Source: Parasedimentitalea maritima
Lineage (GTDB): Bacteria; Pseudomonadota; Alphaproteobacteria; Rhodobacterales; Rhodobacteraceae
Length of the DNA: 64,000 nt
Reading direction: 5' to 3'
NCBI RefSeq assembly: GCF_005771405.1
Contig: NZ_VAUA01000003.1
Coordinates: 372,001 to 436,000 of the forward strand
Shown one piece after another: positions 32,950 to 62,274 of the stretch (positions are counted from its first letter, which is position 1; each line of letters opens with the position of its first letter). The notes below the pieces were generated by a model. The model was not told the origin of the DNA. It worked only from the letters and a program-made list of their open reading frames with translations, and did no database searches. The position numbers and the translations under genes were made by a program.

Positions 32950-32952
32950 GTA

Positions 32953-35638: not shown

Positions 35639-35781
35639 CAGAGCACATCCTAAATTGTACCGACAATCGTTGTTTACATGCCATGTCTGAATAAAGGCTG
35701 ACTGAAGGGGCGGGACTTGACCGTAATCAGCGGCTATAAACCACCTTGGAAACTCTCCAAACCAACAGGTTTATCAAAACG

Positions 35782-37505: not shown

Positions 37506-40500
37506 ATGAAGACACATAATACTCCCATTTCCTCTGGTGCCCCGGCAACCGGAGATATTGCCATTGTTGGCCAATCCGTCTGTGTGCCCGGTGCCCAGTC
37601 AGCGGCTGAGTTTTGGACAAACCTAAAGAATGGTGTTGAATCAATATCCCGCCTGGAGGAACAAGCCCTGCTAGAGGCCGGGGTTAGCCCTCAAACCCTG
37701 TCAGATCCTAATTACGTTCCCTCTGCAGCCCTGCTGCAGGACTATGATAAATTTGATGCCGACTTCTTTGGTTTCAGCCCCAAAGAGGCGGCCATTCTGG
37801 ACCCGCAGCATCGCAAGTTTCTTGAAGTTGCCTGGTCCGCTATGGAAGATGCCGGCCACCCTCCTGAAAGTTTAGAAGGGAAAATTGGTGTTTATGCAGG
37901 CTGCGGAATGGGCAGCTATTTCTATTTCAACATCTGCTCTAACCCGCATCTGGTTGACGATGTGGGCATGTTCCTGCTGCGCCATACCGGCAACGACAAG
38001 GATTTTATGGCCACCCGCGTCAGCCATGTGTTTGATCTGAAAGGCCCTTCGATCAGCATGCAGACCGCCTGCTCCACCTCTTTGGTGGCAGTGCATTACG
38101 CCTGCAAGGCGCTGCGCGAAGGCGAATGTGACATGGCCCTGGCCGGTGGATCAACCATCGAACTGCCACAGGGACGTGGCTATTTGTTCAAGGAAAACGA
38201 GATCCTGTCGCCGGACGGCCATTGCCATGCGTTTGATCACCGGGCTCAGGGCACAGTGTTTGGATCTGGCGCTGGCGTGGTGGCGTTGCGTCGTTTGGAA
38301 GATGCGATAGCCGATGGCGATCATATCTGGGCCGTGATCAAGGGGTCGGCCGTCAACAATGATGGCGCTGCCAAGGCTGGCTATCTGGCGCCTTCAGTTG
38401 ATGGGCAATCCGCGGCAGTACGTATGGCGTTGCAGGCCGCTGATGTTTCCGCTGACACCGTGGATTATGTCGAGTGCCACGGCACCGGCACCTATCTGGG
38501 CGACCCGATTGAGGTTTCCGCCCTGACCGAAGCCTACCGCGACAGCACTGATGAGACCGGATATTGCCGCATAGGATCGGTGAAAACCAACATCGGCCAT
38601 CTGGACACCGCAGCGGGTGTGGCTGGACTGGTGAAAACCACATTGGCCCTGCATCACCAGCAAATCCCGGCCTCATTGGGGTATGAAGCACCAAACCCCG
38701 CAATAGACTTTGACGACAGCCCGTTTCGCGTCAACGATAGGCTGCACAACTGGACCTCACACAAAGGCCCCCGCCGTGCGGCGGTAAACGCCTTGGGGGT
38801 TGGCGGCACCAATGCACATATGGTGCTGGAAGAGGCCCCCAAGCGGGCCGCTTCTGAAGAGAGCGATTTCCCGTTCCACATTCTGTGCCTGTCCGGCCAA
38901 TCCAAGGCCGCATTGGACGCCAACAGTTCAGCGCTGGCCGCACATCTGCGGGATAATCCGGATCTGGATCTGGCTGATGTCGCCTGGACGCTCAAGGAAG
39001 GTCGGCGCGGCTTTTCCAAACGCCGGGTTCTGGTAGCGGAAACCAGTGCTGAAGCAGCCCAATTACTAGACGACGGTGACCCGCGCCGGGTATTTAGCCA
39101 TGATCACTTGGGCGACGCCCCCGAAACCGTGTTCATGTTCCCCGGCGGTGGCGCACAATACGCTGGCATGGCGCGGGACCTCTATGAAACCGAGCCCGAG
39201 TTTGCTGACTGGATGGACCGTGGGCTAGATCACCTACAGAAACAGCTCGACTATGATATCCGGGCACTTTGGCTACCGGAAGCTGGCGAAGACGATGCCG
39301 CAAACAAGCGCCTGCAGAAACCTTCTGTGCAATTGCCTCTGATCATGATCGTGGAATATGCGCTGGCCCAATTGTGGATCAGCTGGGGCGTAAAGCCCAC
39401 CGCCATGGTTGGCCACTCGATGGGCGAAAACACAGCGGCCTGTCTGGCGGGTGTGATCCGTTTTGAAGATTGCATCGATCTGGTTCTGCTGCGTGGTCAA
39501 TTGTTCGATACTGTCCCAGCAGGTGGAATGCTGAGCATCTCGCTGCCACTGGATCAGGTTAAAGCCCTGATCAGTCCGGATCTGGACATTGCATCAGTCA
39601 ACGCCCCGAACCTGACCGCTGTCTCAGGTCCACAAGCCGCTCTCGATGACCTGTCAGATGACCTGAAGGCCCGCGATGTGGATCACCAACGGATCCAGAT
39701 TGATATCGCTGCCCACAGCCGAATGCTGGACGGAATTCTGGAACAATATCGCAGTTTTCTGAACGCACTGACGCTCAATGCGCCGCAGATTCCACTGATG
39801 TCGAACCGCACTGGCATAGCCCTGACTGACGCACAGGCCACCGACCCTGAATACTGGGCCGGGCAGCTACGCAATACCGTGCATTTTGCCGATTGCATCA
39901 ATACCCTTGCCGCAACGCCCAACCGCGTATTCCTCGAAGTCGGCCCCGGCAAGGCGCTCAGCTCTCTGGCACAAATGGCACCGGATGTTCAGCCCACACA
40001 GGTGCTCAGCAGTCTGCGTCATCCGGATCAGGACATCGCTGACGATTCTTATTTCTTTGGTATCATTGGCCGTCTCTGGGCCTGTGGTGTCAGCGCCGAC
40101 TGGGATCAGATCTGGGGCGAGGCCAAGCGAAACCGCCTGCCACTGCCGACCTATGCCTATCAGCGCACTCGCTACTTCATTGAGCCGGGAAAGCAGATTA
40201 CATCCGAAGAACAGCCCCTGCCCGCTCGCCACGACGACATGGTAGATTGGGGATATCGCCCTGCTTGGCGCCCCCGTTTGGCGGATTGTGATCTGGATGT
40301 AGACAGCGAATTGGCCAGCGCGCCGCAAACCTGGCTGTTCTTTGAAGATGAAACCGGCGTGGCAGCTGCAGCAGCCGACAGATTAACCGCAGCTGGACAT
40401 CAGGTGGTGCGGGTCCGCCCCGGGGACAGCTATGCAAAGCTGACTGACACCTCTTATGTGCTCCCCCCCGAACAGGGTCGTCTGGGGTATCAGGCCTTGC

Positions 40501-43500
40501 TGGCAGACCTTGAAATCACCGATCTTTTGCCAACCCGGATTGGTCATTTCTGGCTGGTCACGGCAGCCGAAACCTTCCGTCCCGGATCGTCGTTCTTTGA
40601 TCACACTTTGGAAGTTGGATTCTACTCATTGACCGCACTGGCGCAAGAGTTAGGCAATATGGACCTGCCTGCACCGCTGCACCTAAGCATATTCACCACC
40701 GGGGCAGCACAGCTGCGGGACGAGCCGCTCCCCTACCCGGAAAAAGCGTTAATTGCCGGACCGGCCGGGGTCATCCCGCGTGAATTGCCCGGCCTGACCT
40801 GCGCCACTGTAGATATTGAATTGCCTGTCCACCACAAAGGCTGGCGCAATCTGCTCAGCACTGCTGAACCCACAGACATCACCTCTCGCCTGCTAGAAGA
40901 ATTGCTGAGTGAGCCTGCCAACCTGACCGCCCTTTGGCGCGGTGACAAACGGTTTGAGCAAAATTGGCGCCCTGCGCCCTTGCCCACCATGGACACAGAA
41001 GTATTCAAACAGGGTGGCCACTACCTGATCACCGGCGGATATGGCGGTATTGGCCTGACAATTGCCGCCGATTTAATGCGCAGTCAGAACGCAAAGGTAA
41101 CGCTGATCTCACGCGATGGGCTGCCTCCACGCGAGTCATGGGATCACTACCTGCACAGCCACAGCCCTGCCAATCGCACCGCGATCCGAATTCGCGCTCT
41201 TTTGGCGCTTGAAGACATTGGTAGCGGGCAGATCCTGCCATTGGCAGCGGACGTCTGCAACAGCGGTCAGATGCGCGCCGCGGTGGAGGCAGCCGAAGCC
41301 CAGTTTGGCAAATTGAGCGGGGTCATTCACGGGGCAGGTCAGATCAACGACGGGCCTATTCTGGCCAAGACCGAACAACAAATCGCCGAGGTATTTGCCC
41401 CCAAAATCAGCGGATTACGCGTATTAGATGGGCTGTTCCCCGATGGCACCCTGGATCTGATGGTGTTGTTTTCGTCATCATCAGCCGCCACCCGGCCTGC
41501 CGGACAGATCGACTATGTTGCAGCCAATGAATACCTGAATGCATGGGCCAAACATCGCAAGGGTGGCAAAACCCGTGTTGTTGCGGTGGATTGGGGCGTC
41601 TGGAGCGACACCGGCATGGCTGCCGAAGCCATGGCCCAGCGTATGGGCGGCGATGGTCCCTCAGAACGGACCCCTTGTGACCAGCCACTCCTGCAAAATC
41701 AGGGTTTTGATGCCTTTGGCAATCGCATTTTTGCCTCAAAATTCACAGGCCGTGATGATTGGCTTTTGGATGATCACCGCACCCTTGACGGGACAGCATT
41801 GGTTCCCGGCACCGGTTACATCGAACTGGCTGCCGAAGCACTTGCTGCGCAGGGCGTAAATGAACCCTATGAAATCCGCGACTTGTATTTTCTGCGCGCC
41901 CTCCGGGTCATGGACCACACTCCGCGTGAAGTTTTGGTGCGGCTTGAGGCCAATCAGGATGGCTATGGTTTCGCCGTCCACGCCGAGGCCCAGCAAGGCT
42001 ATGCCCTGAACGCGCAGGCCACAGTGGTGCTAACCCCCGAGGCCGCGCAACCTGCCACGCTGGACCTGACCGCAATTGCAACCCGCTGCCCGCAGGTGAC
42101 ACCGGGCGGTAAAGAGAGGCTGCGTTCGCCGCAGGAACAGCATCTGAAATTTGGCCCACGCTGGCATGTCCTCGAACAAACAGCACTGGGTGACAGAGAA
42201 GGCCTGGCCCATCTGCGCATTCCAGACATTGCACAAAATGACGGCACTCTGCTGCACCCCGGTCTGCTGGACCTTGCCACCGGATGGGCTATTGATCTGG
42301 TCCCCAGCTACGGCGGTAAAACCCTATGGGTACCGGTTTCTTACCGGGCCATCCGGGTATTTGCACCGCTGAGCACCGAAATTCGCAGCCATATGCGTTT
42401 GGCGCCCAACCAGTCCGACGGTTTTGCACTGTTTGATGTCACGCTCAGTGATGCCCGTGGCAAAGTGCTGGTTGAAATCGAAGGCTTCCAGATGAAACGC
42501 CTGGATGGCGCACTGGACTTTTCAGCCGGTGAAGAAGCTGACACCAGCGCCGCCAAACTGGGCTTGGCAGCTACCAGCAACGCGCAGCCACTCTCACCCG
42601 ACGAGCAAAGACTGCAACTGAACATCGCCAATGGCATTCAAGCCAGTGATGGCGCGGAGGCCCTGAACCGTGCATTGGCAACGGGTCTTTCGCAGGTACT
42701 GGTTTCTTCCTTGGATCTGCCCGCTTTGATTCAGCAAGCCGGACAGTCCGCCACCCAAGCGGACGGAGAGGCACAGAGCTTTGAACGGCCAGATCTGGAT
42801 ACCGACTATATTGCCCCACGCAATCCAGTTGAGGAAGCGCTGGAGCGCAGCTTCTCGACCCTGCTAGGGGTGTCGCAGGTCGGGATCGAGGACAGTTTCT
42901 TCGACCTTGGCGGGCACTCGCTGATTGCGGTGCGTCTGTTTGCCCAGATCAAACGGCAGTTCGACGTAGAATTCCCAATCTCGGTGCTGTTTGAAGCCCC
43001 AAGTGTCGCAAAACTGGCGGATCTGGTCATTCAGCGCACCGGTGGCGGCATCACTGCTGACGACACCGCACAGACCTCCGCTGATACCGCCGAACAGCCA
43101 GCTCAGTTCAAGCACCTCGTCACCCTGCATCCGGGCGACGGCACCGGGCGCAGGCCGTTCTTCTTGGTTGCCGGCATGTTCGGCAACGTGCTGAACCTGC
43201 GCCATCTGGCCCAGATGGTGGGCCGGGACCGACCGGTCTATGGCTTGCAGGCCCGCGGCTTGATCGGAGATGAGACCCCACACACCCGTATGAAAGACGC
43301 CGCGCACGATTATCTGGATGAAATCCGTCAGGTTCAGCCAGATGGCCCCTATCTTCTGGGTGGCTACTCTGGCGGCGGCATCACGGCCTATGAAGTGGGA
43401 CAGCAACTACAGTTGAGCGGAGAAGAGGTTGCCCTTCTGGCCCTACTAGACACGCCACTTCCTATACGTCCCAGTCTGAACCGGCGCGACAAGGCAATGA

Positions 43501-43991
43501 TCAAAAGCCATGAAATACGTCGTAAAGGGCCGTCCTATCTGGCTGAATGGGCCACGAACAGGGTGCGGTGGGAGTTTGAGAAACGCCGCGCAAAACCCGA
43601 AGACACCCACTCGGCTGCGGAATTTAACAACCATAAGATCGAAGCGGCATTCCGCGAGTCTCTCGACACCTATGACCTGCAACCGTGGCAGGGACCTCTG
43701 GCCCTGTTCCGTCCACCATTGGACCGCCACTGGCAGGTTTCAAATGGGAATTGGGTCAGTGCGGCGCGTGAATATGTCTTTGACGACAACGATTGGACGG
43801 CTTGGGCCCCTAAGACCCAAGTGATCGAGGTTCCCGGTGACCATGACAGCATGGTGCTGGTGCCCAATGTGTCTGTTCTTGCTGAACATTTGCAGACCCT
43901 GATCATCAAGGCAGAAGCTGAAGCCGCACCTTCAACGATGCCCTCTGCCGACTGGCAACCAGAACCAACAAACGCAACCGCTGCTGAATAA
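37506..43991 (+). CDS. Type I polyketide synthase: KS-AT-(psi)KR-DH-ACP-TE
   Basis: A 2161-residue single-module enzyme. The ketosynthase (about 17-440) has Cys189 in QTACSTS, His325 in ECHGTGT and His365 in KTNIGHLD. The acyltransferase (about 540-840) has GHSMGE with Ser638 and IAAHSRM; malonyl or other specificity is not clear. A structural segment (about 920-1150) leads to a ketoreductase with LITGGYGGIG at 1174 and SSSSAATRPAGQIDYVAAN. The dehydratase has His1424 (HRTLDG, one residue longer than the usual HxxxG) and Asp1589. ACP serine is Ser1805 (DLGGHSL). The thioesterase has GYSGGG (Ser1955) and His2113. No enoylreductase is seen. It precedes a GT2 by 14 bp and starts a 17-kb operon. 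Confidence 0.95.
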   Translation: MKTHNTPISSGAPATGDIAIVGQSVCVPGAQSAAEFWTNLKNGVESISRLEEQALLEAGVSPQTLSDPNYVPSAALLQDYDKFDADFFGFSPKEAAILDPQHRKFLEVAWSAMEDAGHPPESLEGKIGVYAGCGMGSYFYFNICSNPHLVDDVGMFLLRHTGNDKDFMATRVSHVFDLKGPSISMQTACSTSLVAVHYACKALREGECDMALAGGSTIELPQGRGYLFKENEILSPDGHCHAFDHRAQGTVFGSGAGVVALRRLEDAIADGDHIWAVIKGSAVNNDGAAKAGYLAPSVDGQSAAVRMALQAADVSADTVDYVECHGTGTYLGDPIEVSALTEAYRDSTDETGYCRIGSVKTNIGHLDTAAGVAGLVKTTLALHHQQIPASLGYEAPNPAIDFDDSPFRVNDRLHNWTSHKGPRRAAVNALGVGGTNAHMVLEEAPKRAASEESDFPFHILCLSGQSKAALDANSSALAAHLRDNPDLDLADVAWTLKEGRRGFSKRRVLVAETSAEAAQLLDDGDPRRVFSHDHLGDAPETVFMFPGGGAQYAGMARDLYETEPEFADWMDRGLDHLQKQLDYDIRALWLPEAGEDDAANKRLQKPSVQLPLIMIVEYALAQLWISWGVKPTAMVGHSMGENTAACLAGVIRFEDCIDLVLLRGQLFDTVPAGGMLSISLPLDQVKALISPDLDIASVNAPNLTAVSGPQAALDDLSDDLKARDVDHQRIQIDIAAHSRMLDGILEQYRSFLNALTLNAPQIPLMSNRTGIALTDAQATDPEYWAGQLRNTVHFADCINTLAATPNRVFLEVGPGKALSSLAQMAPDVQPTQVLSSLRHPDQDIADDSYFFGIIGRLWACGVSADWDQIWGEAKRNRLPLPTYAYQRTRYFIEPGKQITSEEQPLPARHDDMVDWGYRPAWRPRLADCDLDVDSELASAPQTWLFFEDETGVAAAAADRLTAAGHQVVRVRPGDSYAKLTDTSYVLPPEQGRLGYQALLADLEITDLLPTRIGHFWLVTAAETFRPGSSFFDHTLEVGFYSLTALAQELGNMDLPAPLHLSIFTTGAAQLRDEPLPYPEKALIAGPAGVIPRELPGLTCATVDIELPVHHKGWRNLLSTAEPTDITSRLLEELLSEPANLTALWRGDKRFEQNWRPAPLPTMDTEVFKQGGHYLITGGYGGIGLTIAADLMRSQNAKVTLISRDGLPPRESWDHYLHSHSPANRTAIRIRALLALEDIGSGQILPLAADVCNSGQMRAAVEAAEAQFGKLSGVIHGAGQINDGPILAKTEQQIAEVFAPKISGLRVLDGLFPDGTLDLMVLFSSSSAATRPAGQIDYVAANEYLNAWAKHRKGGKTRVVAVDWGVWSDTGMAAEAMAQRMGGDGPSERTPCDQPLLQNQGFDAFGNRIFASKFTGRDDWLLDDHRTLDGTALVPGTGYIELAAEALAAQGVNEPYEIRDLYFLRALRVMDHTPREVLVRLEANQDGYGFAVHAEAQQGYALNAQATVVLTPEAAQPATLDLTAIATRCPQVTPGGKERLRSPQEQHLKFGPRWHVLEQTALGDREGLAHLRIPDIAQNDGTLLHPGLLDLATGWAIDLVPSYGGKTLWVPVSYRAIRVFAPLSTEIRSHMRLAPNQSDGFALFDVTLSDARGKVLVEIEGFQMKRLDGALDFSAGEEADTSAAKLGLAATSNAQPLSPDEQRLQLNIANGIQASDGAEALNRALATGLSQVLVSSLDLPALIQQAGQSATQADGEAQSFERPDLDTDYIAPRNPVEEALERSFSTLLGVSQVGIEDSFFDLGGHSLIAVRLFAQIKRQFDVEFPISVLFEAPSVAKLADLVIQRTGGGITADDTAQTSADTAEQPAQFKHLVTLHPGDGTGRRPFFLVAGMFGNVLNLRHLAQMVGRDRPVYGLQARGLIGDETPHTRMKDAAHDYLDEIRQVQPDGPYLLGGYSGGGITAYEVGQQLQLSGEEVALLALLDTPLPIRPSLNRRDKAMIKSHEIRRKGPSYLAEWATNRVRWEFEKRRAKPEDTHSAAEFNNHKIEAAFRESLDTYDLQPWQGPLALFRPPLDRHWQVSNGNWVSAAREYVFDDNDWTAWAPKTQVIEVPGDHDSMVLVPNVSVLAEHLQTLIIKAEAEAAPSTMPSADWQPEPTNATAAE

Positions 43992-44005
43992 CCCCGAAAG
44001 TCACC

Positions 44006-45022
44006 ATGACCAATCCGTCGATCCTGACCATCATCCTGAACTACCGCACAGCTGAGATGACAGTGCGCGCAGCCGAGGCAGCCCTGCGCGAAATGGCGGA
44101 CCTGCCGGGCGAGGTGCTGGTTATCGACAATGGATCAGGGGATGGGTCTTACGATGTGATCCATAAAGAGGCCAAGGCGCGTGGCTGGGTCGACAGCGGC
44201 CAATTCCGCCTGCTGCAATCGCCGCGCAATGGCGGGTTTGGCGCGGGCATGAATTTTGGCATCAAGGCTGGCCTGTCCGATGGAACCGCGCCCGATTTCT
44301 ATTACCTGTTGAACTCAGACGCCTTTGTCGAACCGGACGCGATCCGCCTGTTACGCGATTTCCTGCAAACCAACACCAAGGCGGGCATGGTCGGGTCTTA
44401 TGTCTGCGGAGTGGACGACACCCCCCATGCAACCGCGTTCCGGTTTCCCTCAATTGCAGGTGAATTCGAAGGTGCCGCTCGCACCGGCGTGATCTCTCGC
44501 CTATTGCGCAAATCGATTGTGGCGTTGGAAATCCCCACTGACGAGATCCAAGTTGACTGGACTGCAGGCGCCAGTCTGATGATCCGGCGACAGTTGATCG
44601 AGGACATTGGCGGCTTTGATGAAACGTTCTTCCTGTATTATGAGGAAACCGACCTATTCCGCCGTGCAGCAGCCGCAGGGTGGCGAACGCACTACCTGCC
44701 CTCCAGCAAAGTGCGGCATGTTGGGTCAGCCTCCACCGGGATGAAGGAATGGGCACGCGCCCCGTCTTACTGGTTTGACTCGCGACAGCATTATTTTGCT
44801 AAAAATCACGGACGCCTCTACGCGGCAACCGCGACACTGGCATTGGTGGCGGGAGGTCTAATTTGGCAGTTGCGTCGACTTGTACAAAACAAACCCAGAA
44901 CTGATCCTCCTCATTTTTTACGTGACCTCATCAGCTATTCTTTGCGCGCATTAATTAAACCGGGGCGCGCAAGCCGCCCTGATCCAAAACTGACCGCCGT
45001 TCCCCCGGAGGAATTGAAATGA
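44006..45022 (+). CDS. Family 2 glycosyltransferase (rhamnosyltransferase-like)
   Basis: A 338-residue GT2 with TIILNYRTAEMTVRAAEAAL, VLVIDNGSGDGSYD, an LLNSDAFVEPDA loop (S-D-A in place of DxD) and the ETFFLYYEETDLFRRAAAAG motif typical of WbbL/RfbF rhamnosyltransferases. A hydrophobic segment near 270-285 may attach it to the membrane. It lies between the PKS and NRPS genes, with ATGA overlap with the latter, which ties the polyketide pathway to sugar transfer. Confidence 0.9.
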   Translation: MTNPSILTIILNYRTAEMTVRAAEAALREMADLPGEVLVIDNGSGDGSYDVIHKEAKARGWVDSGQFRLLQSPRNGGFGAGMNFGIKAGLSDGTAPDFYYLLNSDAFVEPDAIRLLRDFLQTNTKAGMVGSYVCGVDDTPHATAFRFPSIAGEFEGAARTGVISRLLRKSIVALEIPTDEIQVDWTAGASLMIRRQLIEDIGGFDETFFLYYEETDLFRRAAAAGWRTHYLPSSKVRHVGSASTGMKEWARAPSYWFDSRQHYFAKNHGRLYAATATLALVAGGLIWQLRRLVQNKPRTDPPHFLRDLISYSLRALIKPGRASRPDPKLTAVPPEELK

Positions 45023-48000
45023 GCCATTTTTCCTGTGTTGTCATTGGCAATGAATCGCTGCTTATCGGTTGCGCAGATGCGTTGTTACGCGGTGGGCACG
45101 ACGTACACGCCGTGGTTTCTACCGATCCGGATATCTGCGCCTGGGCAACGGACAAGGGATTAACCCAATACGCCAAAGCCGCAGATTTAAGCGGCAATTT
45201 CGACTGGCTGTTCTCCATCGCCAACCTGACGCTGATCCCCGATGCTGTGTTGAACATGGCCAGCAAGGGCGCGATCAATTTCCACGATGGCCCTTTGCCG
45301 CGTTATGCCGGGTTGAACACGCCAAACTGGGCGTTGATCAACGGTGAAGCCGAGCATGGCATCACATGGCACATGATCGAAGGTGGCGTTGACGAAGGCG
45401 ACATTGTTGCCCAACGCCTGTTCCCGCTATCCGAAGACGAAACTGCGTTTAGCTTGAATTCCAAATGTTATGCCGCTGCAATCGACAGCTTTGGCGAGGT
45501 AATGGCGCAATTGGAGTCCGGTGCAATAACCCGAACGCCACAGGATCTGAGCCAGCGCAGCTATTTTTCCCGTGCCGACCGCCCTGCGGCTGGCGGCCGG
45601 TTGGACTTTACCCGCCCAGCCAACGAGCTGTCACAACTGGTGCGCGCCTTGGACTATGGCGGCTATTGGAACCCCCTTTGCGCAGCCAAGGTCGACGTCA
45701 ACGGTCGGATCGTTCTGGTTGGCTCGGCAACTGTTTCTGAGGGCAGCGGCCCGGCAGGTACAGTACTGGATCACCACGCAGACCAGCTGACCATCGCCAC
45801 CGGTGATGGCGCTATCACGCTGGGAAAACTGACCCGGCCCAACGGTGCGGTTGTTGACCTGAACACTCTGTGTCAGCCGGGTGATATTCTGACCTCATTG
45901 AGCCAAGAGCACGCAGATGCCCTGACAACGCAAATGGCGGCGACGCAGGCTGGCGAAACCCATTGGCGAAACCGGCTCAAGAGGATGCAGCCGGTGACTG
46001 TGCCATTGGCCCGGAAAACTGGTGAAAGTGGTTTTGAAACCATAGAAATTGCCCTGCCGCAAGAACGAACACCTGAACAAATCCAAGCCGCTGTCTTGGG
46101 ATGGGCTCTGCTTAGCACTGGCGATGATCAGGCCGATCTGGCTCTGTCCAGCGCCAAACTCGGCGATGCTGCTGTCCCGGACATGATTTCAGACTGGGTG
46201 CCGATCCAGGCACGCCGGGACGAACCATTGCCAGATCTGTTGAACAGGCTGGAAAATGAGCAGAAAAAGATCATCAAATTTGGTGGTTTTGCTGCTGACT
46301 TGGCAGCCCGAGATCCGGACCTGTCAGCACAGGGCATGCCCGGCCTTGGCCTGATGCTGGATTTGGACGCGCCCATCCAGGGTTGCGCTGCAACGCTGGC
46401 GGTCACCAATGGCACAGCCAATTTGCACTTTGACCGTGCGCATCTGGGATCAGCTGAGGCAGCTCTGCTCGCCGCTCGCCTGCACGAGGCGCTGAACGCG
46501 ATTTCAACCCACGGCGAGCAGCCGTTGTCCATGTTGTCTGTCCTGCCCGAAGATGAACGCCGTAAGCTGCTGACGGATTGGAACGCCACGGCGCGCGACT
46601 ATCCGACAGATCAGACCATCCACGCCGCATTTGAGGCACAGGCAGCCCGCAGCCCAAATGCCACAGCACTGGTGTATGAGGACCAGACCCTCAGTTATGC
46701 AGCCCTGAACGCGCAGGCCAATCGGGTGGCAACCAAGCTACAGGCGATGGGTGTCAAACCCGGCAGTCATGTTGGTCTCTACGTCTCACGGTCTCCCGAT
46801 CTGGTGATTGCCGCACTTGCTGTAATGAAGGCAGGCGGAGCCTATGTCCCGCTGGACCCAGCCTATCCCGCTGATCGCATTGCGCATTATCTGCAGGACA
46901 GTCAGGCACAGGTTGTTGTGACCCAAACCGCACTGCAAGACAGCCTGCCCAGTTCCGACGCGCAGGTTTTGGTTCTGGATGCAATGACCCCGACAGATGT
47001 TATCCAGCCCAACGTCGACGGTGGCGCAACAGCCGAGGATCTGGCCTATCTGATCTATACCTCTGGCTCGACTGGCACCCCAAAGGGCGTGATGTTGCGC
47101 CATGCCAATGTTGCGAATTTCTTTGCAGGTATGGATGATCGTATCCCGTTTCAGGTCGGCGACACCTGGCTGGCCCTGACCAGCCTATCCTTCGATATTT
47201 CTGTACTAGAGCTGTTCTGGACCCTGTCACGCGGGTTCAAACTGGTTTTGTCCAGCGATGAAAGCCGGTTGAACCTGTCCAACGGTCCAATTGCGATGTC
47301 CAACCGCAAGATGGATTTCAACCTGTTCTACTGGGGCAATGACGACGGTCCGGGACCGCGTAAATACCAGCTTTTGCTGGATGGCGCGCGCTTTGCTGAT
47401 GCAAACGGCTTTAACGCCGTCTGGACACCTGAACGCCATTTCCACGCCTTTGGTGGTCCCTACCCCAACCCATCCGTCACCGGAGCAGCCGTGGCGGCAG
47501 TCACCAGCAACATCAGCGTACGGGCCGGGTCTTGTGTCGCGCCCCTCCACCACCCTGCCCGCGCGGCCGAAGAATGGTCAGTGATCGACAACCTGACCAA
47601 TGGCCGCGCCGGTTTGGGCATTGCATCAGGCTGGCAGCCGGATGATTTTATCCTGCGGCCGGAAAACACGCCGCCTGCCAACAAACCTGCGATGTATGAA
47701 ACCATCGAAGTGCTGCGCAAACTGTGGCGGGGTGAAGAAGTAGAGTTCCCCCGCAAAGACGGTGGCAAACACGCGGTAATCACCCAGCCGCGCCCTGTGT
47801 CCAAGGAACTGCCGATCTGGGTCACAACGGCCGGCAACCCGGACACTTGGCGCGAAGCTGGTGAAATTGGCGCCAATGTGTTGACCCACCTGCTGGGTCA
47901 GAGCATCGACGAGGTGGGCGGCAAGATCCGCATCTACCACGATGCCCTGCGCAAGGCGGGTCACAACCCAGATGACTTCACCGTCACTCTGATGCTGCAC

Positions 48001-49614
48001 ACCTATCTGGACGACACCCGCGAACAGGCGCGCGAGATCGCCCGCGAACCCATGAAAGACTACCTGCGTTCAGCTGCAGGATTGATTAAACAATACGCCT
48101 GGGCTTTCCCGGCGTTCAAGCGGCCCAAGGGCGTGGAAAACGCCTTTGATATGAAGTTGGACGGGCTCAGCGCCGAAGAACTTGAGGCGATCCTTGAATT
48201 TGCCTTTGAGCGTTATTTTGAGGACTCAGGCCTGTTTGGCACCGTTCAGGATGCGGTCGCACGGGTCGAACAGCTAAAGCGCATCGGCGTGGATGAGATT
48301 GCCTGCCTGATCGACTATGGCATTGCGCCGGATGTGGTGATGGAGGGGCTGAAACCGCTGGCAGAAACCCTGCGCCTGTCCAATGCGCCCACCGAACTGG
48401 CCGCGGATGATTTCTCGCTGGCTGCACAGGTCATACGTCATGATGTCAGCCACATGCAATGCACCCCGTCGATGGCGCGGATGATTTGCATGAACGGCGA
48501 GGCGCGCTTGGCGCTGGGTCAGCTACAGCAGTTGATGATTGGGGGCGAGGCGCTGCCCGGTGATCTGGTAGAGGACCTCCGCCAAACCACTCAGGCGCAA
48601 ATCCACAACATGTACGGGCCAACAGAAACCACAATTTGGTCCACCGTGCAGACACTTGAAGAGATCCCGTCGGGCATTGCACCAATTGGCACACCAATCG
48701 CCAATACCAGTACATATGTGCTGGATGACAAACGATGCCCCGTTCCTATTGGCGCAGTTGGTGAATTGTTCATCGGTGGTGCCGGTGTTGCAGCAGGGTA
48801 TTGGCAGCGTGCGGATTTAACCTCTGAAATGTTTGTTGACGATCCCTTTAACGATGGCAACGGGCGCATGTATCGCACCGGTGATCTGGTGCGTTGGCGC
48901 AGTGACGGGCAGCTCGGCTATTTGGGGCGCACCGACACTCAGGTCAAAATCCGCGGACAGCGCATTGAATTGGGTGAAATCGAAGCCGCAATTGCTGAAT
49001 TCGACGGGATCACTGCCGCCGTTGTTGTGGCGCGCACGGTCAACGGAAACGAGACGCTGGTCGGCTATATCACAACCACAGAGCCGGTCGATGATCTGGC
49101 ATTATGTGGCAGTCTGGCATTGCGGTTGGCCGAGGTAATGGTGCCAGCGCATATTGTGACACTGGATCAGTTCCCGCTGACACCCAACAAAAAGATCGAC
49201 CGCAAAGCCCTGCCCGACCCCAAGCCAACGCGTGAAGCCGTTGCGATTGATGCCCCACCACCAGCTGCCGGTGCTCAGGCGCAGATTGCTGCAATCTGGG
49301 GACGAATTTTGGGCGTTGGGAACATCCGGGCCCAGGATAGTTTCTTTGCTCTGGGAGGCCATTCACTGTTGGCCGTCCAGGCACACCGCGATATTCGGGC
49401 AGAAACCGGGGTGGCCAAACTCTCAATCACCGATATATTCCGCTTTCCAACACTGTCCGGTCTTGCCGCGCATCTGGATAAACTGTCCGGTGGCACGGCG
49501 TCGGTCGAAGAAAAACCCGACGCCGAAGCAGAAGCCGCAGCAGAGGCGGAGAAGTCGGACAAAATGTCAAAACGCCGCGCCATGCGGGCCAACCGCAAAG
49601 CAAGGACCGGATGA
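45019..49614 (+). CDS. NRPS-like protein: formyltransferase, degenerate C, A domain with inserted luciferase-like monooxygenase, PCP
   Basis: A 1531-residue protein. Residues 1-300 are a formyltransferase domain with Asn87, His89 (INFHDGPLPRY) and Asp125. Residues 340-515 resemble the C-terminal half of a condensation domain but no HHxxxDG is present. The adenylation domain starts near 530 with IYTSGSTGTPKG (A3) and FDIS (A4, 725). Between A4 and A5 (NMYGPTETTIW, 1197), a luciferase-like FMN monooxygenase is inserted (about 765-1115, MDFNLFYWGNDDG...). This is the MupA/Atu3671-type (TIGR04020) arrangement. PCP serine is Ser1449 in LGGHSL. The predicted specificity residues are D-I-L-Q-M-G-M-I-W-K, very close to the glycine code. 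Translation is coupled on both sides (ATGA). Confidence 0.93.
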   Translation: MSHFSCVVIGNESLLIGCADALLRGGHDVHAVVSTDPDICAWATDKGLTQYAKAADLSGNFDWLFSIANLTLIPDAVLNMASKGAINFHDGPLPRYAGLNTPNWALINGEAEHGITWHMIEGGVDEGDIVAQRLFPLSEDETAFSLNSKCYAAAIDSFGEVMAQLESGAITRTPQDLSQRSYFSRADRPAAGGRLDFTRPANELSQLVRALDYGGYWNPLCAAKVDVNGRIVLVGSATVSEGSGPAGTVLDHHADQLTIATGDGAITLGKLTRPNGAVVDLNTLCQPGDILTSLSQEHADALTTQMAATQAGETHWRNRLKRMQPVTVPLARKTGESGFETIEIALPQERTPEQIQAAVLGWALLSTGDDQADLALSSAKLGDAAVPDMISDWVPIQARRDEPLPDLLNRLENEQKKIIKFGGFAADLAARDPDLSAQGMPGLGLMLDLDAPIQGCAATLAVTNGTANLHFDRAHLGSAEAALLAARLHEALNAISTHGEQPLSMLSVLPEDERRKLLTDWNATARDYPTDQTIHAAFEAQAARSPNATALVYEDQTLSYAALNAQANRVATKLQAMGVKPGSHVGLYVSRSPDLVIAALAVMKAGGAYVPLDPAYPADRIAHYLQDSQAQVVVTQTALQDSLPSSDAQVLVLDAMTPTDVIQPNVDGGATAEDLAYLIYTSGSTGTPKGVMLRHANVANFFAGMDDRIPFQVGDTWLALTSLSFDISVLELFWTLSRGFKLVLSSDESRLNLSNGPIAMSNRKMDFNLFYWGNDDGPGPRKYQLLLDGARFADANGFNAVWTPERHFHAFGGPYPNPSVTGAAVAAVTSNISVRAGSCVAPLHHPARAAEEWSVIDNLTNGRAGLGIASGWQPDDFILRPENTPPANKPAMYETIEVLRKLWRGEEVEFPRKDGGKHAVITQPRPVSKELPIWVTTAGNPDTWREAGEIGANVLTHLLGQSIDEVGGKIRIYHDALRKAGHNPDDFTVTLMLHTYLDDTREQAREIAREPMKDYLRSAAGLIKQYAWAFPAFKRPKGVENAFDMKLDGLSAEELEAILEFAFERYFEDSGLFGTVQDAVARVEQLKRIGVDEIACLIDYGIAPDVVMEGLKPLAETLRLSNAPTELAADDFSLAAQVIRHDVSHMQCTPSMARMICMNGEARLALGQLQQLMIGGEALPGDLVEDLRQTTQAQIHNMYGPTETTIWSTVQTLEEIPSGIAPIGTPIANTSTYVLDDKRCPVPIGAVGELFIGGAGVAAGYWQRADLTSEMFVDDPFNDGNGRMYRTGDLVRWRSDGQLGYLGRTDTQVKIRGQRIELGEIEAAIAEFDGITAAVVVARTVNGNETLVGYITTTEPVDDLALCGSLALRLAEVMVPAHIVTLDQFPLTPNKKIDRKALPDPKPTREAVAIDAPPPAAGAQAQIAAIWGRILGVGNIRAQDSFFALGGHSLLAVQAHRDIRAETGVAKLSITDIFRFPTLSGLAAHLDKLSGGTASVEEKPDAEAEAAAEAEKSDKMSKRRAMRANRKARTG

Positions 49615-50297
49615 TCACAGAATTGACGGCGCAGGATACTCAGCGGCATGCTCTGGCGCGGGTGCTGTTTGAAGAGGATGTGGCATTGGCGGTGTACAAT
49701 CCACTGGCCAATCCGCCACGCCCATTTTCGGCTGAACTGGCCTGCCTGTCGCCCAATGCTGTTGAAAAACGCCAACGCGAATTTGCGGCGGGCCGCGCCG
49801 CGGCCCATGCGGCAATGGGTGATTTGGGGTATCCCGCCCAGCCGGTGCTGGTCGGCGACAAGCGCGCTCCCATTTGGCCCAAAGGGCTGACCGGATCAAT
49901 CACCCATACCCGCAGCTGCGCGATGGCGGTGCTGGCACGGTCTGATAATTTACGTGGTCTTGGCATCGACGTCGAAGAAGACACACCGCTGAAAAATGAC
50001 TTACTGCCCGCGATCTGCTCGGAACGGGAACAAGCATGGCTCAAATCGCAGAGTAACCCGGGCCAGTTGGCTAAAGTGATTTTCTCGGCCAAAGAAGCCG
50101 CCTATAAGTGTCAATATACCTTGAGCCAACGGTTCTTTGGGTTTGATGGGATGGAGTTAGAGCTAGATCTGGCGCAGGGTCGGTTTCAGGCCCGCCTGAC
50201 CGCTGAACAGCCTCCCTTTGCCCGTGGTGCTACCTTTGACGGGCAATTTGCCGTTGGCGCTGGGGTGATCGTGACCGCAGCCGAACTGCGTAACTAA
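49611..50297 (+). CDS. 4'-phosphopantetheinyl transferase (EntD/Sfp type)
   Basis: A 228-residue protein with SITHTRSCAMAVLA, GLGIDVEEDTP (Mg-binding Asp/Glu) and FSAKEAAYKCQY, the three family motifs. It would load the phosphopantetheine arm onto the ACP (Ser1805) and PCP (Ser1449) of the two large synthases in this operon. Its ATG overlaps the NRPS stop, which links it firmly to them. Confidence 0.93.
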   Translation: MITELTAQDTQRHALARVLFEEDVALAVYNPLANPPRPFSAELACLSPNAVEKRQREFAAGRAAAHAAMGDLGYPAQPVLVGDKRAPIWPKGLTGSITHTRSCAMAVLARSDNLRGLGIDVEEDTPLKNDLLPAICSEREQAWLKSQSNPGQLAKVIFSAKEAAYKCQYTLSQRFFGFDGMELELDLAQGRFQARLTAEQPPFARGATFDGQFAVGAGVIVTAAELRN

Positions 50298-50309
50298 AAG
50301 GAAGCCAGG

Positions 50310-51212
50310 ATGACACGACGTGGGTTTCTGGCTCTGCTGGCGCTGCTACCAACCTCTGGTGCCGCGGCATCAACTTTGGCCGTTCCACAACTTTCGCCAC
50401 CCAATGCTCCGCTGAATGTTTATCATCTGGGGCACTCGCTGGTGGGGGCAGACATGCCGTCAATGCTGGCGCAATTAGCCGGTGAAGGGCATCGCTGGAA
50501 CAGCCAACTGGGGTCGGGAACGTCGCTGAAGCAACATTGGGAACCGGCTGAGCCAATCCTTGACTTTGATCAGGTCAACACCCCGCCCACCTATCGCGAT
50601 GCACGCGAAGCCATCGGGGCCGGAACCTATGACGCCGTGATCCTGACCGAGATGGTCGAGCTGCGCGATGCCATCCGCTATTTTGGCGCAGTTAAATACC
50701 TGCGCCGCTGGGCAAACCTGGCACGTGACGCCAATGCCGAAGCACGCCTCTATCTGTATGAAACCTGGCATCCGCTGGATGACCCGGATGGCTGGTTACA
50801 CCGGATTGATACAGATCTGGATCGCCTGTGGCTGGGAAAACTGGCCGGGTCGGACAGCCGTCGCAACCCCAAACATCCTCTCTACCTGATCCCCGGCGGT
50901 CAGGTGATGGCGGCGGTGGCCCGAGCGGCTGAAGCCGGTAACATTGACGGCTTGACCAAACGAGGGCAATTGTTTGCCAAAACACCATCGGGCGAGCAGG
51001 ATATGATCCACTTCAATGATCTGGGGGCCTATGTGGTGGCACTGACCCATTATGCCGTGTTGTACCACCGTTCGCCGGTTGGCTTGCCCCATCAGTTGCT
51101 ACGCGCTGATGGACACCCCGCAGACGCCCTAACCCCAGTAGCCGCGCGGCAGGTGCAAAACATCGTCTGGCAGGTCGTCACCTCTTTGCCGCGAACCGGA
51201 GTTACGCCATGA
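50310..51212 (+). CDS. Exported SGNH-hydrolase-like protein
   Basis: A 300-residue protein with a twin-arginine-like N-terminus (MTRRGFLALLALLPTSGAAA) and thus probably exported. The SGNH pattern is HLGHSLVG (candidate Ser43) and DMIHFNDLG (Asp231 and His234), plus ETWHPLDD at the middle. Such folds include acetyl- and acyl-esterases of polysaccharides. It lies 12 bp past the phosphopantetheinyl transferase, and its stop overlaps the next gene, a larger homologue. I assign only fold and likely location; activity is inferred. Confidence 0.75.
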   Translation: MTRRGFLALLALLPTSGAAASTLAVPQLSPPNAPLNVYHLGHSLVGADMPSMLAQLAGEGHRWNSQLGSGTSLKQHWEPAEPILDFDQVNTPPTYRDAREAIGAGTYDAVILTEMVELRDAIRYFGAVKYLRRWANLARDANAEARLYLYETWHPLDDPDGWLHRIDTDLDRLWLGKLAGSDSRRNPKHPLYLIPGGQVMAAVARAAEAGNIDGLTKRGQLFAKTPSGEQDMIHFNDLGAYVVALTHYAVLYHRSPVGLPHQLLRADGHPADALTPVAARQVQNIVWQVVTSLPRTGVTP

Positions 51213-53722
51213 GCTGGACCAGTGTCGTTGGCTCGGTTGTTATGATCGGTCACAGCCTGTTTGGCCCGGACAATCCGCAGATGCTGGATCAATTGCTGAC
51301 CGCGCGCAGCCCGGCGGCGGTGTCGGTTCAATCACAAATTATCAACGGTGCGCCACTGCAATACAACTGGGAGCACGCCGACAGTGCCGAAGGCATCAAT
51401 GCCCGCACGCGTTTGCAGCGTCCGGCCGACGTCGTCATTGTGACCGAAGCCATTCCACTGGCCAATCACCTGAAATGGAGCAACACCCCCGAGGCGGTGA
51501 CCCGCTTTTATGAGCTGGCCCGCGCGGCCAACCCGGACGTACAGTTTTTTGTGCAAGAGACCTGGCACAGCCTGAAAAGCGGAAGCGGTGAGGTGGTGGA
51601 GTTTGACGACGGCATGAAAACCCCATGGCGTGATCGCCTGGAACACGATCTGCCGCGCTGGCAGGACGTGGTGGATACGGTCAACGCCAGCACCAACGGC
51701 AACGTGGTATTATTGCCAGCAGGTCAGGCGATGGGCCGGTTGGATGATGCCATTCTTGCCGGCACAGTCCCCGGTTTGACGCATATCAGTGATGTTTTTG
51801 CCGACGACATCCATCCCAATGACATCGGTTTCTATTACTTGTCTCTTTTGCAATACGCGGTGCTGACTGGCGACACGCCGGTAGGTTTGCCACACGAGCT
51901 AAACGATCGTTGGGGGGCAAAATTTGATCCACCCTCAGCCCAACTGGCCAAACGGTTGCAACACATCGCCTGGGAGGCTGCGCAGGGCAGCCCGACCCGT
52001 ACCGCCCTGCCCCCCGAGCCTGAAGCACTGCCCGAAGAACCAAAAATAGCGCGGCTCAATGTGCCTGTCTCTGACGAGGGTACTGCTGCCCCCACCGCGC
52101 TCCGCCAGCCCATCGCGATCAATCTGGCCGCGATTGCGGATTGGAGCCCGCAGGCCCCGTTTCTGGACCACTTTAAAACCGCGCGACCTTGGATTGGCCA
52201 TATCGCTGGGCAATGGGGCGGTGCCGGGCACGATGACCTAGTCTCTGCGGACTATTTGGACAAAAACGGCTGGCCTACTGCACTTCCTCCGGAACTGGGT
52301 TCAATTGGCACGGTCATCCTGACCGACCTGCCAGAAACAGCGACTTCGCTGGCCGGGCGCTATGTGTTGCGATTTGAAGGCGATGGCATTGTCGAGGTCT
52401 CCGGGCGCGGCAAGAACGTCCGCTATGGCAAAGGTCTGGTCTCGTTCGACTATACCCCCGGCCCCGGCCCCGTTGAGATCCGCATTCAGCGCACGGACCG
52501 CGCGAACACCGGCGACTATGTACGCAACATAACCGTGGTCAAGCAGGAGCATCTGGACGCCTATGATGCAGGCGCCTTGTTCAATCCGCTCTGGCTGGAC
52601 AGATTGCAGGGCTTTGCCGCGCTGCGGTTTATGGACTGGATGGAGACCAATGGCTCTGCGCAGATCGGTTGGGAAGACCGTCCGCTGATCAGTGATTACA
52701 CCTGGGGCCGCAAGGGGGTCCCCGCAGAGATCATGTTGGAATTGGCGGATCAGCTGGCGACCGATCCATGGTTCACCATGCCCCATGCGGGCGATGACAG
52801 TTACTTTCGCCAGTTCGCCATGCTCGCAGCCGCCGGGCTGGATGATGATCGTCAGGTCTATGTGGAATACTCCAACGAGGTCTGGAACTGGCAGTTCCCA
52901 CAGGCCAAATGGGCTGATGATCAAGCCCGCACCCGTTGGGGCGGTGATGATTTGTGGATGCAGTTCTACGGTGGCCGCGCCGCCGAAATGGCGCAAATAT
53001 GGACCGCCAGTTTTGGCGATAAGGCCCCAGAGCAATTGGTGCGGGTTATCACCACCCAGACTGGGTGGCTGGGACTAGAGCAACAAATCCTCGAAGCCCC
53101 ACTGTGGGTGGCCGAAAAAGCCGACCGACACCCCCCGGCAAGATACTTCGATGCCTATGCGGTCACCGGTTACTTCGGCGGCATTTTAGGGCTCAAGGAT
53201 CGAGCGGGCATGGTACGGGCCTGGATTGCGGACAGTGCAGAACGCGCCCATGACGCAGCAACAGCTCAGGGTTTGACAGGCACCGCACAGAGAGATTTTG
53301 TCTCGAAGCATCAGTACGACATCGCCAGCGTTCAAGCCGAAGCGGAGCTGCGCGATGGGCTGATTTCAGGCGATCCCGCAGATACTCTGGCTGACCTGCT
53401 GGGCCGGGTCCTGCCTTATCAGGCCGATATCGCTGCCAAACATGGCCTGGACCTGATCATGTACGAAGGCGGCAGCCACATCGTGGGCATCGGGCCCATG
53501 GTTGATGACGATACGCTGACCGGCTTTTTCACCCATTTCAACTATACAACCGAAATCGGCACGCTTTATGGTGAGTTGCTTGCGGGTTGGCAGGCTTTGG
53601 GCGGCCAGATGTTCACAGCCTATGTTGATGTCTACACCCCTGCCAAATGGGGCAGCTGGGGCGCCCTACGCAACCTCAATGACAGTAATCCACGCTGGGA
53701 TGCTCTGGAGGCGGTGAAATGA
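51209..53722 (+). CDS. SGNH-like domain fused to a putative clan GH-A glycosidase domain
   Basis: An 837-residue two-part protein. Residues 1-260 repeat the SGNH-like layout of the preceding protein: MIGHSL (Ser16), QETWHSL and DDIHPND (Asp199, His202). From about 305 a second part follows: a beta-rich segment and then a likely TIM barrel with VEYSNEVWNW (Asn556-Glu557, the NE acid/base of clan GH-A) and IMYEGGSHIVG (Glu753, candidate nucleophile). No signal peptide is visible, unlike its neighbour. It may edit the polysaccharide, but substrate and location are unknown. ATGA overlaps on both sides. Confidence 0.72.
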   Translation: MSWTSVVGSVVMIGHSLFGPDNPQMLDQLLTARSPAAVSVQSQIINGAPLQYNWEHADSAEGINARTRLQRPADVVIVTEAIPLANHLKWSNTPEAVTRFYELARAANPDVQFFVQETWHSLKSGSGEVVEFDDGMKTPWRDRLEHDLPRWQDVVDTVNASTNGNVVLLPAGQAMGRLDDAILAGTVPGLTHISDVFADDIHPNDIGFYYLSLLQYAVLTGDTPVGLPHELNDRWGAKFDPPSAQLAKRLQHIAWEAAQGSPTRTALPPEPEALPEEPKIARLNVPVSDEGTAAPTALRQPIAINLAAIADWSPQAPFLDHFKTARPWIGHIAGQWGGAGHDDLVSADYLDKNGWPTALPPELGSIGTVILTDLPETATSLAGRYVLRFEGDGIVEVSGRGKNVRYGKGLVSFDYTPGPGPVEIRIQRTDRANTGDYVRNITVVKQEHLDAYDAGALFNPLWLDRLQGFAALRFMDWMETNGSAQIGWEDRPLISDYTWGRKGVPAEIMLELADQLATDPWFTMPHAGDDSYFRQFAMLAAAGLDDDRQVYVEYSNEVWNWQFPQAKWADDQARTRWGGDDLWMQFYGGRAAEMAQIWTASFGDKAPEQLVRVITTQTGWLGLEQQILEAPLWVAEKADRHPPARYFDAYAVTGYFGGILGLKDRAGMVRAWIADSAERAHDAATAQGLTGTAQRDFVSKHQYDIASVQAEAELRDGLISGDPADTLADLLGRVLPYQADIAAKHGLDLIMYEGGSHIVGIGPMVDDDTLTGFFTHFNYTTEIGTLYGELLAGWQALGGQMFTAYVDVYTPAKWGSWGALRNLNDSNPRWDALEAVK

Positions 53723-54555
53723 CCCAATTGGTCTCGGTCTTGATCCCAGCCCATAATGAGGCCGGTTATATCGCTGCCTGCTTAGACGCATTGTTTGCCT
53801 CTGACCCTCTGCCAAATGGGATGTCGGGCGAGGTTTTGGTACTGGCCAATGGCTGCACCGATACCACCGCCGAGATCGCACGATCTATATCGCCCGCTGC
53901 GGGTTGGATCATGCAGGTTCTGGAAATTGCCGAAGGCGGAAAATTGAACGCTCTGAATACCGGCGATGCCACGGCTAAGGGCGACGTGCTGATTTATCTG
54001 GATGCGGATGTTGTGGTCGAGCCTGCCCTGATCCAGCAAATTGCCACGGGTTTGGCCGGGGACGGACCGCTCTATGGCAGCGGACGCCCGGTGGTTGCCC
54101 CGGCCAGCACCCCACTCACCCGCGCCTATGGTCGGTTTTGGCAGAAACTTCCCTTTGTCAGCCAAGGTGTGCCGGGGTTTGGCCTGTTTGCGATGAACCG
54201 GGCTGGACGTCTGCGGTGGGGTAACTGGCCTGATATCATTTCCGATGACACCTTTGCCCGATTGAGTTTTTCCCCCTCTGAACGGATTTCTCTGCCAGCC
54301 AGCTATCACTGGCCAATGGTCGAAGGTTTGGAAAATCTGGTTCGGGTGAGACGTCGTCAGAACATTGGGGTCTCTGAAATTGAAGAAACATATCCTCAGC
54401 TTCTGAAAAACGATGAGAAAATGCCGGTGGGAGTCGCAGGATTGCTCAAGATGGCCAGGCGTGATCCACTTGGTTTTGGCGCCTATGCCTTGGTTTCGTT
54501 GCTTGTAAAAACGCCTATGTATTCTTCTAGGTCACGTTGGGCACGCGGGCGTTAA
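53719..54555 (+). CDS. Family 2 glycosyltransferase
   Basis: A 278-residue GT2 with VSVLIPAHNEAGYIAACLD, VLANGCTDTTAE, GGKLNALNTGDATA and LIYLDADVVVEP (DAD metal site). No N-terminal membrane span; a hydrophobic stretch near the C-terminus may associate with the membrane. It is the last gene of the 17-kb operon and overlaps by 4 bp the convergent GT4 gene. Confidence 0.9.
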   Translation: MTQLVSVLIPAHNEAGYIAACLDALFASDPLPNGMSGEVLVLANGCTDTTAEIARSISPAAGWIMQVLEIAEGGKLNALNTGDATAKGDVLIYLDADVVVEPALIQQIATGLAGDGPLYGSGRPVVAPASTPLTRAYGRFWQKLPFVSQGVPGFGLFAMNRAGRLRWGNWPDIISDDTFARLSFSPSERISLPASYHWPMVEGLENLVRVRRRQNIGVSEIEETYPQLLKNDEKMPVGVAGLLKMARRDPLGFGAYALVSLLVKTPMYSSRSRWARGR

Positions 54556-55766: not shown

Positions 55767-55984
55767 CCAATCCGGGCATGATGTTTTTGGCAGGGTAGCG
55801 GTGGTTTCATCGCTTGCAAAGCTTATCGCATATAGGCGGTCACCTTAACCACCAATCCTGCGGATACCGTGGGATTGTCGCCCGTCCAAGCCCAAATCAC
55901 CGATGAAAACCCGGATACACCCGACAGCAATTGACGCGATTCCCCCCTGCCCATAGCGTGCCGGTGACAACATCAGGAGACCAC

Positions 55985-62091: not shown

Positions 62092-62234
62092 TTCCGAATG
62101 TCTCCTTTCAAAACATCTTTTTTCAATAACCTAAATGTATCGCCCTCAATCCAGAGAGCCTCGGTCCACAGTAGAGTACCATGATTTTTCTGTTCAGGTA
62201 AAACACCGACATCGACACAATGTTGAGAGCTTCA

Positions 62235-62274
62235 GCTGTTCGGCTGTTCGGCTGTTCGGCTGTTCGGCTGTTCA
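62235..62274. repeat. Octanucleotide tandem repeat, five copies
   Basis: Four perfect copies of GCTGTTCG and a final GCTGTTCA run from 62235 to 62274. The array lies between two AraC genes, about 143 bp upstream of the start of paralogue 1. Slipped-strand changes in copy number would shift promoter spacing by 8 bp. Confidence 0.9.

Follow-up and report, generated by a model that had tools for sequence, protein, structure and literature searches.

A conserved NRPS-PKS gene pair within an exopolysaccharide locus of Parasedimentitalea maritima and its relatives

In linear gramicidin synthetase, the LgrA loading module comprises a formyltransferase followed by an adenylation domain and a carrier; the adenylation domain contains no luciferase-like monooxygenase (LLM), and the product is an antibiotic peptide. 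Adenylation chemistry is also found in exosortase-A-associated exopolysaccharide (EPS) loci, which carry an AMP-forming ligase (TIGR03098), and the polyketide synthase (PKS) RkpA includes an enoylreductase. Fabrubactin is made by a related LLM system. The LLMs of PKS and nonribosomal peptide synthetase (NRPS) systems are described, in the excerpts cited, as hydroxylases of carrier-bound chains, mostly as proposals (PMC8739492, PMC4219810). We analyzed a stretch of 64,000 nt (hereafter, the window) from the 4.85 Mb genome of Parasedimentitalea maritima (contig NZ_VAUA01000003.1, positions 372,001 to 436,000), in which a run of genes encoding a type I PKS, an NRPS-like protein and accessory proteins lies within a Wzx/Wzy-type EPS locus. 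We judge the chance to be about even that the two synthases work as one assembly line, from NRPS to PKS, devoted to this EPS.

The run occupies positions 37506-54555 on the + strand and, in the open reading frame (ORF) map, consists of seven genes: PKS, GT2a, NRPS-like, 4'-phosphopantetheinyl transferase (PPTase), SGNH1, SGNH2 and GT2b (Table 1), with successive intergenic gaps of 14, -4, -4, 12, -4 and -4 bp. A sequence-only reading of the window had counted eight genes, a number reached only by adding the upstream membrane protein gene at 35746-37242, which lies 263 bp away. Its domain calls for the run (type I PKS, GT2, NRPS-like, Sfp-type PPTase and GT2) and for the flanking Wzx, Wzz and initiating transferase agreed with Pfam and NCBIfam, and predicted structures confirmed its two SGNH calls, as an SGNH protein and an SGNH domain joined to a TIM-barrel glycoside-hydrolase domain. 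Its Wzy/WaaL call for 35746-37242 is probable: the protein has hydrophobic segments and is related, via homologues, to a protein matching Wzy_C below the cut-off, but a Pfam search with the protein itself gave no match. The flippase, chain-length regulator and initiating transferase of a Wzx/Wzy-type EPS locus are all present; in NCBIfam, Wzz, CpsD and WbaP scored under the full-length cut-offs. A scan for promoters and terminators found no excess over shuffled sequences (8 versus 8.7; 20 versus 19.6).

The rhizobial and Burkholderia rkpA/wcbR genes likewise place a type I PKS inside a surface-polysaccharide cluster; the likeness is one of location, and neither an NRPS loading partner nor a formyltransferase or an LLM is mentioned for these genes in the excerpted text (PMC3908369). 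Because rkpA/wcbR sit in capsule clusters, the earlier statement that PKS genes are normally separate from surface-polysaccharide loci was too strong (PMC3908369, cited in part).

To trace the pair in relatives, NRPS orthologues were defined by an E value of 1e-150 or better. They were found in 105 of 295 genomes of the family (one per genus, P. maritima included), in 7 of 385 genomes of the class sample, five of the seven within the family, and in 16 of 398 genomes of the phylum sample, where ten belong to the family and two of the remaining six have no formyltransferase triad. We then counted neighboring genes in the best 80 of at least 588 confirmed relatives in named genomes, whose titles are Rhodobacterales except for two Hydrogenophaga. 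These counts were taken from tblastn and hidden Markov model (HMM) searches, because greedy longest-ORF maps hide genes in GC-rich loci. The PKS was adjacent in all 80 loci, and GT2a (79/80), PPTase (73/80), SGNH2 (54/80), GT2b (52/80) and SGNH1 (37/80) were detected at decreasing frequencies. GT2a lay on the strand of both synthases in all 77 loci assessed. At least one EPS core marker was found in 76 of the 80 loci and at least two in 73; this is the co-occurrence search that the sequence-only reading had proposed. Its claim that the synthases belong with the polysaccharide locus is supported by this linkage and by EPS-linked pairs in Ruegeria, Aminobacter, Shinella, Paracoccus and Methylobacterium records.

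For comparison, EPS markers were found in none of 20 hand-picked 20-kb regions from the genomes of ten relatives and in 5 of 17 hand-picked loci around other adenylation or NRPS genes; two of these five carry two markers, and several of the scores are weak. Fisher tests of the 80 loci against the two controls gave 2e-17 and 1e-8, values that are overstated because related loci were treated as independent. Chance or artefact was rejected on the basis of residue conservation, the recurrence of the gene set and both controls. Among the matches listed, the nearest named relative is plasmid pW43C of Parasedimentitalea marina, whose NRPS is 77.6% identical and whose neighbors are largely alike. Nine plasmid records were opened; seven are annotated, and polysaccharide genes adjoin the pair in six of these. 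As for the two unannotated records, Methylobacterium L031 contains Wzy_C and Wzz-like genes, and Rhizobium L029 gave Wzx and WecG matches.

The NRPS-like protein has, to judge from its sequence, the composition of a formyltransferase-adenylation-peptidyl carrier protein loading module like that of LgrA, with which it was aligned around the N/H/D residues: a formyltransferase with the N-H-D triad, an adenylation domain, a carrier and no active condensation domain. In a residue survey of 89 loci, the triad was kept in 88 and gapped in the remaining one. The formyltransferase is followed by a stretch of ~250 residues without a Pfam match, the final ~70 of which are a condensation-domain remnant that aligns to the pre-adenylation sequence of LgrA and of outgroup enzymes with a full condensation domain; Pfam gave no condensation-domain match in the protein, and no HHxxxDG motif was found. 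In the outgroups L137 and L138, the condensation domain is complete, an LLM splits the adenylation domain, which is of the glycine type, and the formyltransferase triad is absent. Since these outgroups keep the condensation domain and have no triad, the loading module appears to have arisen from a condensation-adenylation(LLM)-carrier module that lost condensation activity and gained a formyltransferase. The basic C-terminal tail is alike in 10 printed Rhodobacterales and Hydrogenophaga examples and unlike in Aminobacter and Shinella.

The ten-residue code of the adenylation domain is DILQMGMIWK, and all 89 loci conform to DILQ[MLFYA]GM[IV]WK, with variants present in 51, 24, 10, 2, 1 and 1 loci. 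The glycine code of kalimantacin Bat2 is given as DILQLGLIWK in the excerpt cited (PMC4831472); the code in the window is identical to it at 8 of 10 positions, with L replaced by M at the other two. By this code, the adenylation domain is of the glycine type. Assignment of the domain to TIGR03098 was rejected (222 bits against a cut-off of 592), leaving adenylation chemistry within an EPS locus as the point of likeness to exosortase-A-associated loci. The LLM nested in the domain scored above the curated cut-off of TIGR04020 (seco_metab_LLM) and is therefore a member of this family, which includes MupA, PuwE and the palmerolide LLM; its best solved match is PuwE (PDB 6ket, 332 bits). These described examples belong to metabolite clusters according to the excerpts cited (PMC4219810, PMC8739492), whereas the LLM of the window is nested in the glycine-type adenylation domain of an EPS-linked loader.

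LgrA was rejected as the closest kin of the formyltransferase, whose best PDB sequence matches are Fmt, ArnA and GDP-4-amino-4,6-dideoxymannose formyltransferases (88-74 bits, compared with 28 bits for LgrA, the more distant type). Because the domain is closer to Fmt, ArnA and sugar N-formyltransferases than to LgrA's, its substrate may be an amino sugar. We therefore considered that it acts on a sugar amine, which would make the NRPS protein a link between sugar N-formylation and acyl synthesis; we regard this as very unlikely. The domain is fused to an adenylation-carrier loading module, as in LgrA, and an Fmt-like C-terminal domain, lacking in LgrA, may explain the higher Fmt-like score. 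Moreover, L030 and L136, two relatives without EPS markers, retain the triad; the replacement of the catalytic H by F in L133, which also lacks markers, could be counted in favor of a sugar substrate.

The PKS has one module with the domain order KS-AT-KR-DH-ACP-TE (ketosynthase, acyltransferase, ketoreductase, dehydratase, acyl carrier protein and thioesterase). A PKS match was obtained in 87 of the 89 surveyed loci; 81 homologues of at least 1700 residues were aligned and 6 shorter ones omitted. The KS C-H-H, AT S, KR S-Y-N and DH H/D residues, the ACP S and the TE S-D-H were kept in all 81. Pfam gave no enoylreductase match in the PKS, and it detected a thioesterase on the PKS only, with none on the NRPS-like protein. 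RkpA-type PKSs have been proposed to supply a lipid-like anchor or carrier, and the pair could likewise provide the polysaccharide with an anchor of this sort or with an alternative carrier. The established presence of PKS genes in capsule clusters is in keeping with this proposal (PMC3908369, cited in part). However, a short polar unit is favored over a fatty chain because there is no enoylreductase match, the loader is of the glycine type and the PKS is a single small module; the locus also has its own WbaP-type initiator. An anchor or carrier role thus seems distinctly improbable. The small acyl or amino-acyl product originally suggested is consistent with a loader of the glycine type followed by a single PKS module that bears a thioesterase.

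A tree of 97 NRPS sequences placed 90 in one clade (support 0.996) and five in a sister clade (support 1.0). An initial view that this sister clade lacks EPS genes was withdrawn, as Wzy_C, Wzz-like, WbaP or WecG genes lie beside its two Methylobacterium-type pairs (L031; L132 with L139 and L140). No EPS marker of our panel was found near L030 (40 kb searched), L133 with L141/L142 (60 kb) or L136 with L143/L144 (60 kb). Since the sister clade contains EPS-linked Methylobacterium-type pairs and the marker-less L030, L133 and L136 also occur, the EPS linkage is old but not universal. No EPS markers were found in L033, which ends at a contig end, or in L097; L058 and L071 lack core EPS markers and contain other glycan genes (sequence starts by eye; GT4, Gfo or acyltransferase HMM matches). 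Beside the L133 pair, the adjoining ORFs (L133:2789-5933) resemble by eye a zinc-uptake (Znu/Zur) set, a possible hint of a metallophore there.

The three marker-less relatives keep alive the possibility that the pair makes a free small metabolite (a metal chelator, signal or antibiotic) and shares only regulation or location with the EPS genes, both belonging to a package for surface growth. The outgroup enzymes L137 and L138, which have no EPS marker within their 20 kb, also point in this direction, as does an apparently matching orphan 'NRPS-like/T1PKS' cluster of Roseibaca, published as an expected source of bioactive compounds (PMC10584327, cited in part). On the other hand, 76 of the 80 loci contain an EPS marker, and GT2a lies between the synthases on their strand in every assessed locus. 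The sequence-only reading had named homologous clusters that lack glycosyltransferases and make a free metabolite as grounds for abandoning the polysaccharide link; the three marker-less pairs go part of the way, but L030, an annotated Aliiroseovarius plasmid record without polysaccharide genes beside the pair, still has a GT2 gene ~16 kb away and an exosortase gene, and a free metabolite would be putative for each of the three. On balance, we consider a free metabolite unlikely.

The proposed assembly line dedicated to EPS starts from features demonstrated at the sequence level, namely the gene set, the domain order, the intact catalytic residues, the glycine-type code and the conserved EPS setting. 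The product would be a short N-formylglycine-primed acyl unit made for the EPS and presumably attached to a sugar. In this mechanism, the PPTase of the run would activate the carrier proteins, the NRPS would load glycine, the N-terminal formyltransferase would formylate an amine, most simply that of the glycyl group, and the nested flavin monooxygenase would hydroxylate a carrier-bound intermediate. The PKS would then add one malonyl-type unit, reduce it and perhaps dehydrate it, and its thioesterase would release the short acyl chain (about C4) or transfer it directly to a sugar of the repeat unit; mycobacterial Pks13 is a precedent for a PKS thioesterase that transfers an acyl chain to a sugar. 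The repeat unit would be built by GT2a, GT2b, GT4 and WecG and exported and polymerized by Wzx/Wzy/Wzz, and the envelope SGNH/glycoside-hydrolase proteins, where present, would move or trim acyl groups and glycan. The formyl acceptor, the oxidized position and the transfer to sugar are the least certain steps.

Several observations weigh against this assignment. To our knowledge, none of the members has a known chemistry. The loci do not share a dedicated transferase (SGNH1 being found in fewer than half of them), and the possible amino-sugar substrate of the formyltransferase and the marker-less relatives described above also count against it. In the Aminobacter and Shinella records and in the relatives L134 and L135, GT2a does not adjoin the synthases, and in the P. 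marina relative the interval from NRPS to SGNH1 contains no PPTase gene. In addition, the 80 loci are the nearest relatives and are hence biased and mutually related, the marker HMMs derive for the most part from these loci and favor them, and markers also occur in some control loci around other adenylation or NRPS genes.

The later editing by SGNH and glycoside-hydrolase proteins that had been suggested is consistent with their folds but would be confined to some loci. At the thresholds applied, searches of Pfam, NCBIfam and PDB sequences found no match for SGNH1 or SGNH2. The best Foldseek match of the predicted SGNH1 structure is the DUF4886 protein 4i8i (E value, 1e-7), and its triad S43/D231/H234 is invariant in 24 of 24 homologues. 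Its N-terminus is twin-arginine-like, a pattern shared by 9 of the 24, with other hydrophobic starts in several others. SGNH2 matched GDSL esterases and GH26/GH10 enzymes (E values of ~1e-4, with low whole-chain TM-scores); its candidate catalytic residues E557 and E753 are invariant (25/25), and the serine column of its SGNH domain is gapped in 11 of 25 sequences, partly because the locus sequence ends there. The predicted folds suit envelope editing by optional, non-core proteins.

Table 1. Features of the run and the surrounding EPS locus in the window
Feature	Position	Strand	Evidence
WecG/TagA/CpsF glycosyltransferase	34835-35638	-	PF03808, 152.5 bits
Polytopic membrane protein, probable Wzy polymerase/ligase	35746-37242	+	~10-12 hydrophobic segments
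Type I PKS, one module	37506-43991	+	Pfam
KS (approx.)	37554-38834	+	Pfam
AT (approx.)	39129-39968	+	Pfam
KR (approx.)	41016-41609	+	Pfam
DH (approx.)	41685-42506	+	Pfam
ACP (approx.)	42837-43028	+	Pfam
TE (approx.)	43161-43844	+	Pfam
GT2a, GT2 glycosyltransferase between PKS and NRPS	44006-45022	+	Pfam
NRPS-like loading module	45019-49614	+	Pfam/NCBIfam, alignment
Formyltransferase domain	about 45019-45870	+	Pfam/NCBIfam
Adenylation domain, split by LLM	46630-47271 and 48337-49212	+	Pfam/NCBIfam, alignment
Nested LLM, TIGR04020, MupA/Atu3671 family	47317-48366	+	471.9 bits, cut-off 244.45
Carrier protein, then basic C-terminal tail	49282-49476	+	Pfam/NCBIfam
Sfp/PptT-type PPTase	49611-50297	+	Pfam; NCBIfam under named families' cut-offs
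SGNH1, putative envelope esterase/acyltransferase	50310-51212	+	AlphaFold pLDDT 92, Foldseek
SGNH2, SGNH domain + TIM-barrel glycoside-hydrolase domain	51209-53722	+	AlphaFold pLDDT 88, Foldseek
GT2b, GT2 glycosyltransferase	53719-54555	+	Pfam
GT4 glycosyltransferase	54552-55766	-	Pfam
Wzx-type flippase	55931-57349	+	PF13440, 142 bits
Wzz-like chain-length regulator	57382-58647	-	TIGR03007 match under cut-off; two hydrophobic segments
CpsD-like tyrosine autokinase	58770-59714	-	TIGR03018/TIGR01007 matches under cut-offs
WbaP-type initiating sugar-phosphate transferase	59809-60672	-	TIGR03022, 281 bits over profile's C-terminal part; full-length cut-off 403

Elsewhere in the window, a tandem pair of AraC-type regulators, both with an arabinose-binding N-terminal domain (61081-63352), adjoins the WbaP-type gene and might control the locus. 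A TamA/TamB-like pair (Omp85 and TamB domains; 4-bp overlap; 23354-28575) lies upstream of the EPS locus, and at 31927-34458 a Hint-domain protein (PF13403) adjoins a protein of 501 aa that weakly matches Bud32 kinase and whose C-terminal part looks, by eye, rich in cysteine. Other NRPS genes lie near a WbaP-type sugar transferase in the loci L145, L147 and L154 (191, 246 and 122 bits), and a second type of NRPS-glycan association may exist. On a Paracoccus marcusii plasmid (L028:1-3310), a further adenylation-carrier-thioesterase protein overlaps a WecG gene in the EPS locus that contains the module. Beside the module in L061 (L061:19373-22490), an extra protein that matches the adenylation part (552 aa) accompanies one that by eye resembles pyridoxal phosphate-dependent decarboxylases; we take these genes to resemble exosortase-A EPS loci.

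The literature search found no paper linking the NRPS-PKS pair to EPS. The Roseibaca cluster has an NRPS gene of 4527 nt and a PKS gene of 6333 nt, one gene apart, and matches the present pair in size and spacing; clusters of its hybrid NRPS-like/T1PKS type, known from Roseibaca and relatives, occurred in 18 of 37 species and were the commonest among the new ones (PMC10584327, cited in part). Unlike here, it was reported, in a genome-mining paper, as an unknown bioactive-compound cluster, and the text of that paper contains none of the words glycosyltransferase, polysaccharide and exopolysaccharide (PMC10584327). In Phaeobacter inhibens, the PKS Inhi_1972 and the NRPS Inhi_1974, numbered two apart, have no assigned product in the part of the report cited (PMC4062626). 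From size and order, we infer that the Roseibaca and P. inhibens pairs are the module described here. As holdfast is restored to a Caulobacter hfsJ mutant by a WecG enzyme from P. inhibens (PMC11340318, cited in part), the polymer of the window could, by analogy, be a holdfast-like adhesin.

These results indicate that the module is genuine, occurs widely in the family and has been filed under the wrong heading rather than being entirely new; it belongs to the kind in which a PKS lies in a surface-polysaccharide locus and has an unusual NRPS loader. In its fullest form, our proposal would be that about one-third of the sampled genera of the family decorate Wzx/Wzy EPS with a short, oxidized, N-formylglycine-primed acyl unit, that the thioesterase hands the chain to a sugar, and that the line evolved for a polysaccharide substituent and not for a free product; taken together, this is tentative and somewhat unlikely to hold in every part. 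The probable product of this gene set, hitherto catalogued as a drug-like cluster of unknown function, is a chemical decoration of the slime polymer. If the pair serves EPS, the hunt for a diffusible drug would be misdirected and a common modification of marine biofilm polymers would have been overlooked, and the pair would offer a genetic handle on moving assembly-line chemistry onto sugars.

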